This document shows, piece after piece, positions 39,818 through 64,000 of a DNA stretch of 64,000 nt. The translations under genes were made by a program, and so were the position numbers. The stretch's first letter is position 1, and each line of letters opens with the position of its first letter. Under the pieces are notes generated by a model, which did not search any database, was not told where the DNA came from, and saw only the letters and a program-made list of their open reading frames with translations. The stretch covers positions 117,418,629-117,482,628 of the forward strand of contig NC_051063.1 in the NCBI RefSeq assembly GCF_004664715.2. Reading direction: 5' to 3'. Source of the DNA: Peromyscus leucopus (taxonomy: Eukaryota; Chordata; Mammalia; Rodentia; Cricetidae).

Positions 39818-40639
39818 AAGGAGTAAATCAATCCCTTAAAGAAATCAAGGAAAAGACAAAAAAAAATTGGAGGAAACAAATAAATCCCTTTAAAAAGCCA
39901 AGAAAAACAAATAGTTGAGGGAAATGAATAAAACTGTTCAAGATAAAAATATGGAAATAAAAGCAATAAAGAAAACACAGAATGAGGGAATTCTGAACAT
40001 GGAAAATTAGGTATGTGAACAGGAACTATAGATGCAAGTATCACCAATAGAATACAAGAGACGGGAAGACAGAATCTCAGGCACTGAAGATATAAAAACA
40101 AGATACAGTAGTCAAAATGTTAAATCGAAAATAAAAATGCTGACAGACAACATCCAGGAAATCTGGCATACTATGAAAAGACCAGACCTAAGAATAATAG
40201 GAATAGGGGAAGGAGAAGAATCCAGTTCAAAGGCCCAGAAAATAATTTCAACACAATCATAGGAGAAAACTTTCCTAACCTAAGCAGGAGATGCCTATAA
40301 AGATACAAGAAGCTCAGAAAACACCAAGTAGATTGGATCAAAAGAAGAAAGTTTCCTCATCACATAATAATCAAAACATTAAATGTACAGAACAAAGAGT
40401 ATTTAAAGCTGCAAAGACAAAAGACCAAGTAGCATATAAAAGTAGACTTATTAGAATTATGCCTGACTTGTCAATATAATCTCTGAAAATGAAAAGATGC
40501 CCTGCAGACTCTAAGAGACCACAGAAGCTAGCCCAGACTACTATACTCAGCAAATCTTTCAATCAACATAAATGGAGAAAACAGGATATTCTATGACAAA
40601 ACCAAATTTAAACAACATCTATCTATAAAACCAGTCCTA

Positions 40640-40819
40640 GCCGGGCAGTGGTGGCACACGCATTTAATCCCAGCACTCGGGAGGCAGAGCCACGCGGATC
40701 TCTGTGAGTTCGAGGCCAGCCTGGGCAAACAAGTGAGCTCCAGGAAAGGCGCAAAGCTATGCAGAGAAACCCTGTCTCGAAAAACCAAAACAAACAAACA
40801 AACAAACAAACAAACAAAA
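40640..40819 (+). repeat. B1 SINE nested in L1 ORF1
   Basis: Complete B1 with an (AAAC)n tail. The flanking duplication ends in 'cagtccta' (40632-40639 and 40822-40829), with one mismatch upstream of it. Confidence 0.96.
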
Positions 40820-41056: not shown

Positions 41057-43555
41057 ATGAAATAAGAGGAATTAGAAATAATTGGTCATTGATATCTCTC
41101 AATATCAATATTCTCAATCCCCCAATAAGAAGACGCAGAGTAACAGAATGGATGTGAAAAAAAGGATCCGTTCTGCTGCTGCATACAAGAAACATCTCGC
41201 CGGGCGGTGGTGGTGGCACACGCCTTTAATCCCAGCACTCGGGAGGCAGAGGCAGGCAGATCTCTGTGAGTTCGAGGCCAGCCTGGGCTACCAAGTGAGC
41301 TCCAGGAAAGGCACAAAGCTACTCAGAGAAACGCTGTCTCATCTCAACATCTCAACATCAAAGATAGACATTATCTCAGAGGAAAGGGTTGGGAAAAGGT
41401 TTTCCAAGCAAACGAACCTAAGAAGAAAGCTGGTGTAGACATTCTAATATCTAACTTCCAATCAAAATTAATCAAAGAGATGGGGAGGGACAATTCATAT
41501 TCATCAGAGGAAAAAAATCTTTCAAGATGACATGTCAATTCTTAACATCTACTCCTATTCCCTGAAAGCAAGGGCATACACGTTGTCAAAGAGACATCAC
41601 TAAAACCACATATTGACATTCACACATTGATAGTGGGATACTTCAATATCCCACTTTCACCACCAGGGAGTTCATCAAAAACTAAACAGAGAAGCACTGG
41701 AGCTCACAGATGTCATAAGCTAGATGGATCTAAAAGATATCTACATAACATTTCACCCCAACACAACAGAATACAATTTCTTCTCAGCACCTCATGGAGC
41801 TTTCTCTAAAAATTTCCACAAACTTGGAGACAAAGAAAGTCTCAACAGATAAAAGAAAATAGAAATGACTCCTGTACTCCATCAGGCCACCATGGATTAA
41901 GGATGGTTATTAACAAGAACAGAAACAAATGAAAGCTTACAAACTCATGGAAACAGAACATTCTCTACTAAATAAAAAATAGGTCAAGACAAATAAAGAC
42001 AGACATTAAAGACATTCTAGAATTCAGTAAAAATTAATACACAACTTATCCAAACTTATGGGTCACAATGAAAGCGGTGCTAAGTGGAAAGTTCCTAGCA
42101 CTAAGTGCCTTCATTAAAAAAAAAAAAAATTGGAGAGAACTCATACTAGCAACTTAACAACACACCTCAAAACTCTAGCAAAAAAACAAAAGAAAAGAAA
42201 AGAAAACAAAACGAAGTAAGCACACCCAAGTGTAGTAGATGGCAGGAAATAATCAACGTGAGGGCTAAAATAAATAAAATAGAAACAGACAATACAAAGA
42301 ATAAATGAAACAAAGAGCTGGTTATTTGAGAAAGCAAAGAAGACAGACAAACTTTAATACAAATTAACTGAAGGATTGCTGAAGAATATTCAAATTAAAA
42401 AAAAAAACAACAGAAACAGACAGGAGATATAACAACAGACCTCAAAGAAATCCAGAAAAGCATAAGCACAAAATTTAAAAAACTTTACTCCATTAAATTG
42501 GAAAATCTAAAAGAAATGGATACTTTTCTTGATAGGTTCCACTTAAAAATGTTACATCGAGATCATATGAACATTTAAAATATACCTGTAACCCCTAGTG
42601 AAATAGAAGCAACCACTAAAAGATTCCCAACCAAAAAAATTCCAAGGACAGATGGTTTTAGCACAGAATTATGCAGATTTTCAAGAATTAAAGCCAGTTA
42701 TTTACAAATTATTCCACAAAATAGAAAGAGAAGGAAAACTGCCCAATTCATTTTATGAGGCCATAGTTACTGTGATACAAAACTACATAAAGTCTCAACC
42801 AAGAAAGAGGATTACAGACCAATTTCCCATATGGAAATGGATGCAAAAGTACTCAATGAAATACTTACAAACCAAATCCAAGATCAAACAAAAATATCAC
42901 CCACCATGATTAAGTAAGCTTCATTCCAGATATGCAGGGATGGTTCAAAACATGAAAGTCAGTAAATGTAATCAATCACATAAATTGAAAGAAAAAAACC
43001 CTGATCATCTCATTAGATGCTGAAAAAGCCTTTGACAAAATCCAATACCCTTTCCTGATAAAAAGCCCCGGAGACATCAGGCCTTAAAGGAACATACCTA
43101 AACATAATAAATGCAATATACAGCAAGCCTATAGCCAACATCAAATTAAATGGGGAGAAACTCAAAGCTATTTCACTAAAATCATGAGCAAGACATGGCT
43201 GTCCATTCTCTCCATATCCATTTAACGTAGATCTCAAGTTCTAGCTACAACAATATAATGGAGAAAAGTGAAAGTGGAAAAGAAGTCAAAGTTTCTTTAA
43301 TTGCAGATGATACAATAGTATATATAAGTGACCCTTAAAGGCCACTAGGGACTCCTACAGCTGATAAACACTTTCAGTAAACTAACTGGATGCATGACTA
43401 ATGCCCCACTCTCAAAAGAGGTCAGTAGCCCTCCTATATATAAATGAAAAATGAACTGGGAAAGAAATCAGGGAAATAACACCTTTCACAATAGCCCCCA
43501 AATAATACTGGTTTAACTCTAACTAAGCAGGTGAAAGACTTGTATGACAAAAATT
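41057..43555 (+). pseudogene. L1 ORF2 remnant (endonuclease and reverse transcriptase)
   Basis: ORF2p supplies the endonuclease and reverse transcriptase of L1. The start near 41057 leads to an endonuclease segment containing 'tatctctcaatatcaatatt', interrupted by a B1 at 41199. The RT shows a recognisable LDAEKAFDKI core near 43013 and the catalytic ADD motif at 43303-43311, followed by TIVYIS. The frame is broken repeatedly, including stops soon after the ADD motif. Thumb and Cys-rich domains are missing because the element ends near 43555. Confidence 0.88.
41199..41345 (+). repeat. B1 SINE nested in L1 ORF2, no A-tail
   Basis: B1 with head 'gccgggcggtggtggtggca', flanked by 'aacatctc' at 41191-41198 and 41346-41353. 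The body ends at 'gctgtctcatctc' with no A-rich tail before the duplication. L1 sequence resumes directly after it. Confidence 0.95.
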
Positions 43556-61100: not shown

Positions 61101-62670
61101 TATAGCAAAGAATTGAAAATTCTATAAAACTTCAGTTGATAGTATATTGTATTTAATTTGCTCCACACTTTAATTTTTTTCAGGTGTACACATTGACATT
61201 TTATTCAGATATTTACAAAGTTACTGCAATAAATATCACAGCCTTATATTTTTTGACTTTTGTAGAGGATAGACATGAATGAAGCACCTTTTCAGATAAG
61301 AAAAAATTAATAGATAATGTTAAAATTTTCAGCTAAAACAAATTTATGCACAAATCTTAATTATTTCCAAATCAACATAAAATTCAGTGGTCTGAGGTGT
61401 TTCTGGAAGAGCCCAAAGTTTTTGAACTACTTGTTTGATGGTCTTCATGTGATATAACTCTATCAAAATGAGTACTTTTTTCATTCCTGGTAGTGGATCT
61501 AAGAATTGTGTTCTTCACTGCTGGTCAGGGAAATCATTCTTGCTTCCAGACTCCAGGATTGCCCTGGGGGAACTTAGCAGAGAGACAAAAGCACAAGAAG
61601 CTCAGGTGTACTTCAGAAATCTAATGTACAACTGAACAGGACTTTTCTCAGAAGGTTCTTGGACAGGAAGGCTGGTGGACTGCATGTCCAGTGAATCCTA
61701 GATTAGCTAACCTGGAATCCCAGAACAGATGATGAGTGTTTAGCAAATTGTAATGGTAGACTTAAAAGTATTTCTCTAATTGTTCGCCAGTTTCCTGTCA
61801 CCTTATAATGAACATATACATGGCAGTCTTTTATTAATTACACTTCATTTCTTCCTCTCTGTTCCCCACTTTCTCAAGAACCAGGACTTCCTCCATGTTA
61901 TCTTCCTGTCTGAGTTTCTTCTCTGCTTTACCAGACTTCAAGTTTGGGCATTTTATCTAGCATGCCCCAGGAATAAGCATAGTTTGTAACCTACTATAAA
62001 AATGAGAGGCAAGCATGCAAGTTGCCTCTATCAAAAAATAGTTTGAGTGTTCCCTGGCTGTACTCAGTTTTGCTCAAACAGGCCTCCTATTAAAATGGTT
62101 CATGGGTTTCCATTTTTGCTGTGTTGTAGAAAAAATAGGCAGTGTGACTAGAAACCTGAACAATCTGGCTCACCATGAACTGTGCAAAGTAATGAGATAC
62201 AAACATAAATGTCTTATGTTTTGATGGGATCAAGTCATATTAAAATAGGGAAAAAGTTATTGTCTCTATATCTCCATGAAAAAAGCAGCTCAATTTCAAA
62301 TCATCAACTTTGAGAATAGTAGTGAATATCAATTGGTATCTCTGGGACTCATCCATATTAATATGTGTGCTCAGTAGTGAGTAAGTGTTCTACCTAGTGT
62401 ATCCAAGAGTAGAGATCTGTTCCAGAAAGACTTGGAGCCTGAGGGACAGAATTTCATAGATGTAGTGAAGAAAACTGACCAAATTTATATCTGGCATTTT
62501 GAAGCATAATATTCACAAGATCTTTATTGGGGGAATGGGCTGACAGCAGATGAAGGCAGTCATGAACTAAAGCTTGCATACAGTAAATGGAAGACAATTA
62601 AAGAAGCTGATTTAATGAATCTACAGATTGTGGTCAAATTGAGGCAATAAAAAACAAGTAAAAGATAGTA
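61101..62670. other. No recognised feature
   Basis: About 1.6 kb of AT-rich sequence with no repeat I can name. It leads directly to the GC-rich block. No exon is defensible here. Confidence 0.4.
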
Positions 62671-62675
62671 GGTAT

Positions 62676-62976
62676 TGGCCGCGGGAGGGGCGGGAGGGGC
62701 GGGGGGAGGGGGGCTGGGAAAGTTGAGGCCGTGCTGCCGCCGGGTCTCCGGCCTCGAGGGCTCGGGCTCGCTGCGGCGGCGGCGGTGGCCGCGAGGAGAG
62801 GCGGCGGGGGGGGGGGAGAGGAGGGCCCGGGCCCGCGCTCCCCCAGCCCCGCAGAAGCAGGCGGCGGCTGCGGACCCAGAGGTTCGCCTGGCCGGCCAGA
62901 CACCGCTGCCTTCCGCTCCTGGGATCATGACCCAGGCGGGGGTCGCCGCCACCGCGGCCCGGAGCGCGTCGCCGGC
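62676..62976 (+). other. CpG-island-like GC-rich block with GC boxes
   Basis: 301 bp of very GC-rich, CpG-rich DNA with abrupt edges in AT-rich surroundings. It starts with two GGGGCGGG boxes (62687-62694 and 62696-62703), continues with CGG repeats (62774-62785) and a G-run (62808-62817), and has an ATG at 62927 in a plausible context opening 17 codons (MTQAGVAATAARSASPA) before the right edge. The layout resembles a housekeeping-type promoter or 5' UTR with an initial coding exon. 'ggtat' occurs at both edges (62671-62675 and 62977-62981). I do not recognise the peptide. It may be an inserted or retrocopied first exon, a true local promoter, or an assembly join. Confidence 0.7.
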
Positions 62977-62981
62977 GGTAT

Positions 62982-63204
62982 GAAATGGTGCTTCAAAAAA
63001 TACATTCTCTATGTATATCAGTGAGTTTATGAATGAGAGTGCGTGTGAGAACGGGTTTTAAAGTATAGACTGGTCCTTGCTATTGGAGATGTCTATCATA
63101 TATATAAATACATATATCATGTTGTACATGATAAATAATATAGTCTTATCTCAATTAAAAATGAACAGTAGGACTGCCATCTGCAGGTGGAAAATTGAGA
63201 CTTT
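62982..63204. other. No recognised feature
   Basis: AT-rich sequence immediately right of the GC-rich block, with no gradual fall in GC. Confidence 0.35.
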
Positions 63205-63212
63205 CTCTAGAG
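63205..63212. other. Target-site duplication, left copy (ctctagag)
   Basis: Eight bases repeated exactly at 63399-63406, the length expected for hAT transposons. Confidence 0.95.
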
Positions 63213-63398
63213 CAGTGGCTCTCAGCCTTCCTAATGCAACCCTAACTGGTGACCCCAGCCATAAAATTATTTTCATTTCTACTTCATAACTGTAATTTTT
63301 CTACTGTTATGAACTGTAATGTAAATATCTGTGTTTTCCAATGGTCTTAGATGACCCCTGTGAAAGGCTGTTTGTGACCCACAGGTTGAGAACTCCTG
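63213..63398 (-). mobile_element. URR1-type hAT-Charlie non-autonomous DNA transposon
   Basis: 186-bp element from CAGTGGCTCTCAGCC to GGTTGAGAACTCCTG, giving imperfect terminal inverted repeats, with 'acttcataactgtaattttt' and 'actgttatgaactgtaatgt' inside. Perfect 8-bp target duplication ctctagag. No transposase. Orientation is opposite to the copy at 3792-4017. Confidence 0.95.
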
Positions 63399-63424
63399 CT
63401 CTAGAGCATGGGAAAACAGGAGGT

Positions 63425-63670: not shown

Positions 63671-64000
63671 AGATGTTTTTTAACCCATTGAGTTAGTAAC
63701 GATTTTAAAGCATATATTAAATCTTGAGAACTTAAAACTAAGAAAAAATTATATGTACTGAATTTTTTAAAACCATTTAAACTCTTAGCTTTCAATTGTT
63801 GCTCTATTCTGTTGAAAACATTATCCCAATGAAGCCTCCCAGGCCTGGTCAGAGCAGATACTGCTGAATGCCGGTCTACAGGCACAGTGGAAAGGAGATT
63901 GCCTGTGCTTAGTCAGCTGTTTTCACCAGACCCCTCCCTCCGCTTCCACTGCCCTTGAAAATCACCCCGTCCTGGTGAACAAAACAAACCCGTGTTTCCT
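63671..64000. other. No recognised feature
   Basis: Unassigned to the window end. The last ~130 bp are less AT-rich. Confidence 0.35.

Follow-up and report, generated by a model that had tools for sequence, protein, structure and literature searches.

A GC-rich block in Peromyscus leucopus DNA is exon 1 of a young processed Usf3 retrocopy that lacks the coding region

The stretch of Peromyscus leucopus DNA analysed here (the window, 64 kb, C1:117418629-117482628) has 36.7% GC and a CpG observed/expected ratio (o/e) of 0.127, and yet it holds one sharply bounded block (62676-62976) with 80.7% GC, 40 CpGs and an o/e of 0.84. How did such a block come to lie in CpG-poor DNA? A first-pass annotation proposed a recent insertion of an exon-1 fragment, a genuine orphan promoter or an assembly chimera. 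We find that the block belongs to a young processed Usf3 retrocopy, the RNA template of which had lost the coding region, most probably by splicing.

The CpG-rich block and its parent exon in Usf3

Composition counts confirmed that the block is real and far outside chance for the window. It is the sole GC-rich DNA in the 64 kb, as first described, since the next separate GC-rich stretch peaks at 52% GC (300-bp windows, 10-bp step). By the usual criteria for CpG islands (>200 bp, GC >50%, o/e >0.6), the segment 62677-62978 is an island, with 81.1% GC, 41 CpGs and an o/e of 0.86. All the letters behind the earlier promoter-like description are in the sequence: two GGGGCGGG boxes at 62687 and 62696, a CGG run, an ATG at 62927, GGTAT at both 62671-62675 and 62977-62981, and a GT at 62978-62979. 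The ATG does open a short frame on the + strand (62927-62983), but this frame is closed, with 18 codons followed by TGA at 62981-62983, instead of the 17 open codons reported. Scans of the 64-kb window for tRNAs and Rfam families gave no match. Raised CpG o/e values were also seen at 40481-40780 and 41131-41430 (0.49 and 0.54, with 47-50% GC), where the translations of overlapping frames resemble B1-type SINEs.

Aligning the 301 bp to the same genome (2.475 Gb, 1840 contigs), as the first-pass annotation had suggested, revealed two places, namely the block itself and C11:52066615-52066912 on the minus strand, with 99% identity. The latter is the parental exon 1. The homology covers 62678-62978 on the + strand, corresponding to C11:52066912-52066613 on the minus strand, instead of the 62676-62976 first given, and an extra G lies at 62677. 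Over the 299 aligned bases of exon 1, copy and parent differ by a single substitution; three single-base indels, all within or next to runs of G, come on top of it.

The parent gene is Usf3 (KIAA2018), located on contig C11 and thus on a different chromosome from the copy. Downstream of the parental exon 1 lies an open reading frame 2213 codons long (with masked bases kept as X), a 600-residue part of which matched 375 proteins at E <= 0.001 among 7983 scored candidates. USF3 of Peromyscus maniculatus bairdii heads the 120 matches listed, with 100% identity over 600 residues, followed by USF3 of Cricetulus griseus with 98%. The C11 frame differs from the P. maniculatus bairdii protein at 19 positions, in addition to 21 gap positions, in two main aligned segments. 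Searches of Pfam and the PDB (E up to 1 in both) with 1499 residues encoded by the last Usf3 exon gave no match. The start-codon exon of USF3 is located at C11:52025457-52025410, about 41 kb beyond the parental exon 1, and the stop codon ends at C11:52004899. Because the start codon lies in that other exon, exon 1 is a 5' UTR exon and not the first coding exon that had been supposed. Given also that its frame closes at the TGA, the ORF at 62927 is an upstream ORF in this 5' UTR exon.

At the parental locus, exon 1 sits inside a larger CpG island, the GC content of which declines gradually over some hundreds of bases on either side. Upstream of the match start, the parent carries ATTGG (inverted CCAAT) at -77, -109 and -199, so the match begins where a Usf3 transcript could well begin; the base just before the first matching base is a T. 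At its other end, the parental match stops at CGG/GTGAGT, a splice donor. The parental intron right after this donor repeats TGGCCGCGGGAGGGG, identical to the first 15 bases of the block from 62676, which is probably a coincidence of GC-rich sequence and could mislead 5'-end alignments. A literature search on USF3/KIAA2018 and on Peromyscus retrocopies, covering titles and the starts of abstracts, found nothing on this locus, and one on CpG-rich ectopic inserts found no papers.

Structure of the retrocopy and hallmarks of its insertion

The whole insert is a complete processed retrocopy of the L1 type, about 2.5 kb long (62677-65192), in which the block forms exon 1; the window covers about its first half. 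The 218 bp to the right of the block (62977-63194) match C11:52003604-52003821 on the minus strand with 99% identity, on the same strand as the parental exon 1 and 63 kb downstream of it. The 300 bp to the left of the block (62376-62675) had no second match in the genome in a search that skips very common words. When the comparison was extended beyond the window, the match proved unbroken from 62977 to 65192 (C11:52003821-52001612), with 97.4% identity. The second exon of the copy, which is part of the Usf3 3' UTR, occupies 62979-65192 on the + strand (the window ends at 64000) and corresponds to C11:52003819-52001612 on the minus strand, with 52 mismatches and six indel columns over 2208 aligned bases. 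The finding of this second match led us to drop an early candidate, a free exon-1 splicing intermediate.

In the parent, the second exon is preceded by the acceptor TTTTTCTTGTAG and begins with GTATGAAATGG. The 62,792 bp between the GTGAGT donor and the TTCTTGTAG acceptor are missing from the copy, as is typical of intron loss. The second exon starts about 1,080 bases past the USF3 stop codon, inside the 3' UTR. As exon 1 is 5' UTR and the second exon is 3' UTR, the retrocopied RNA held none of the USF3 coding region, and the longest + strand ORF of the copy that starts with ATG spans 66 codons. Both edges of the block are abrupt in composition, as first noted, but the right one is an exon-exon junction within an insert that runs on to 65192. 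The GT at 62978-62979, once considered a possible splice donor, is not one: the parental acceptor shows that it marks the start of the following exon. A repeat-like stretch at 63195-63405, starting near GAGCAGTGGCTCTCAGCC and resembling a rodent SINE, is present in copy and parent alike and is thus older than the retroposition.

Directly behind the second exon, the copy has 27 As (65193-65219) that the parent lacks, with an AATAAA ahead of them at 65164. The insert is flanked by a target-site duplication, composed of AAAAGATAGTAGGTATT at 62660-62676 on the + strand (13 bases unambiguous, 62664-62676, and 17 with four As) and its partner GATAGTAGGTATT at 65220-65232, outside the window and directly behind the poly(A) tail, an exact 13-base match. 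The 5-bp GGTAT pair, earlier described as flanking repeats, is accidental and was rejected as a target-site duplication: its left copy lies inside the true duplication and its right copy spans the exon-exon junction. At the implied nick, the bottom strand reads CTTTT/ACTTG, which resembles the L1 endonuclease consensus TTTT/AA and differs from it at one base. Intron loss, a poly(A) tail and target-site duplications are described as hallmarks of L1-mediated retrocopies (PMC7692494), and from these hallmarks we infer that L1 was the enzyme source. In addition, the single G at 62677 on the + strand belongs neither to the target-site duplication nor to the parental sequence. One report took the lone untemplated guanine at an L1 insertion's 5' end to indicate that the template was capped (PMC6425141), and the G at 62677 was probably added opposite the mRNA cap, which would mean a capped template here as well.

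Alternative explanations, age and CpG retention

Compositional edges that are abrupt on both sides might be expected of an assembly chimera or a native CpG island. Neither explains the poly(A) tail, the spliced structure or the 13-17-bp duplication at the two ends, which exclude the chimera, nor the fact that copy and parent have diverged by 2.4% (2208 bases). A native orphan island or promoter is rejected for a further reason: at the parental locus this sequence belongs to a larger island, the edges of which are graded, and the copy carries the marks of retroposition. We regard both possibilities as practically negligible. The proposal of a recent insertion came closest, being right about an inserted exon 1 with its parent in the same genome, although the insert is a complete ~2.5-kb retrocopy and no fragment. 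How the coding region was lost is less clear-cut. Exact GT-AG splicing of the assembled parent predicts GGCGGGTATG at the junction, whereas the copy has GGCGGTATG, one G fewer. The junction GGCGG/TATG is exactly what would arise if a full-length Usf3 mRNA had served as the template and the reverse transcriptase had jumped at a shared GG, and splicing needs a further one-base change; a later deletion from a full-length copy is a variant of the same idea. Nevertheless, both junction sites lie within one base of a strong donor and of an acceptor with a pyrimidine tract, which a jump or a deletion would have had to strike by chance. Moreover, exon 1 has three further single-base indels at or next to runs of G, so that a G lost from the copy, or one too many in the parental assembly, would be no surprise, and the true letters of the parental donor may be GGCGGGTGAGT or GGCGGTGAGT. 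Altogether, we prefer splicing as the probable route and consider a jump or deletion unlikely, though worth keeping in mind.

The 3' part of the copy differs from the parent at 2.4% of sites (52/2208), or about 1.2% per branch on the assumption of equal change in the two. At 4-6 x 10^-9 substitutions per site per year, a rate for rodents, the retrocopy would be roughly 2-3 million years old, an estimate drawn from the comparison of copy and parent. Exon 1 appears better preserved than the whole 3' part, with 1/299 against 52/2208 substitutions (Fisher p = 0.017). Its CpGs tell a similar story. None of the 41 copy CpGs in exon 1 is TpG or CpA in the parent, which has 42, one of them lost from the copy by a one-base deletion. 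In the 3' part, five of 20 parental CpGs are TpG/CpA in the copy and four of 20 copy CpGs are TpG/CpA in the parent, giving p = 0.0026 (5/20) or p = 0.00006 (9/25) against exon 1. Mismatches are spread unevenly along the 3' stretch (62979-65192), with 3, 7, 2, 5, 3, 12, 14 and 6 in successive eighths. Compared to the adjacent 1,378 aligned bases, exon 1 showed no significant difference in substitutions (1/299 versus 20/1378, p = 0.15) or in CpG change (0/41 versus 1/10, p = 0.20). The distal 830 bases, by contrast, hold 32 mismatches and changes at 4/10 CpGs (p = 0.0009 and 0.0008 versus exon 1). Since the exon-1 contrast stems from these distal bases, it does not establish low germline methylation of the transplanted island, which is possible; the uneven mismatches may also reflect a mutation rate that varies along the copy, or gene conversion between its 5' part and the parent.

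The same counts bear on whether the transplanted island acts as a promoter, or stays unmethylated in the germline and plays a regulatory part at the new site. The GC boxes are retained, no island CpG has turned into TpG/CpA and substitutions are scarce, as such a role would predict. The two contrasts, however, are owed to the most distal third of the 3' part and vanish against the adjacent 1.4 kb, the changes between copy and parent are unpolarised, and the upstream region of the parent with its ATTGG boxes was left uncopied. Moreover, a retrotransposed GFP island is described as hypomethylated in male germ cells simply as an inserted CpG island (PMC4509998). In human, 68% of retrocopy-associated CpG islands were methylated in a study cited by a review (PMC5408686), and in another cited study none of 104 intronic CpG islands of suggested retrotransposed origin had parent-of-origin methylation (0/104; PMC4537222). 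The best-known consequence of such an event is the imprinting of human RB1 by the PPP1R26P1 retrocopy, the CpG85 island of which acts as a promoter (PMC4537222). A promoter or imprinted role of the Usf3 copy is thus possible, the one observation pointing to it being CpG retention, and we judge an active or regulatory island improbable. Still more doubtful is a bolder scenario in which capped, polyadenylated Usf3 RNA in the germ line splices exon 1 to the 3' UTR, discarding ~6.6 kb of coding sequence, and in which the retrocopy seeded an autonomously unmethylated CpG island that serves as a lineage-specific promoter, perhaps with parent-of-origin methylation. Most likely, the retrocopy now does nothing.

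Proposed origin and comparison with known systems

We propose, with a probability of roughly 96%, that a Usf3 RNA which had been capped, spliced and polyadenylated was copied into this site through target-primed reverse transcription by an enzyme of the L1 type. The template would have begun at or near the Usf3 transcription start and contained exon 1, the donor of which would have been spliced straight into the 3' UTR acceptor, yielding an RNA without the whole USF3 coding region. Insertion would have taken place roughly a few million years ago. What makes the copy resemble a solitary GC block with abrupt edges is the contrast between exon 1, a CpG island, and the AT-rich 3' UTR that makes up the remainder; the anomaly of the block is thereby explained.

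This is an ordinary kind of event, and processed retrocopies are already known as a kind; the mild oddity is that the copied RNA skipped the entire protein-coding part, and the points of interest that the Usf3 case adds are modest. It illustrates that a retrocopy of an RNA whose first exon is a CpG island can be mistaken for a lone promoter or an assembly chimera when only its 5' part is noticed. Here a natural event has moved a CpG island into CpG-poor surroundings, and the site offers a possible test of whether CpG density alone keeps islands unmethylated in the germline. The copy also appears to record a Usf3 splice form without the coding region, which can be searched for in rodent RNA data.

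Similar to L1-mediated processed pseudogenes of mammals as described (PMC7692494), the Usf3 copy combines intron loss, a 3' poly(A) tail and target-site duplications; unlike them, it is 5'-complete and derives from a template of 5' UTR and 3' UTR only, without a coding region. Retrocopies of MIR302CHG are reported to preserve a parental splice form with a novel alternatively spliced exon (PMC7692494), and the Usf3 copy would likewise preserve one. However, the parent here is a protein-coding gene, the preserved form apparently skips the coding region, and only one copy was found. As in the Usf3 copy, PPP1R26P1 with CpG85 in human RB1 is a case in which a retrocopy carried CpG-rich DNA to a new place (PMC4537222). 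CpG85 is described as an imprinted promoter in a host intron, and the PPP1R26P1 islands as having evolved from smaller CpG-rich regions (PMC4537222), whereas the island of the Usf3 copy, known here from sequence alone, arrived ready-made as exon 1. The GFP CpG-island marker placed by L1 at new locations in mice, and reported as hypomethylated in male germ cells (PMC4509998), is engineered and recent; compared to this marker, the Usf3 copy is a natural case read purely from its DNA.
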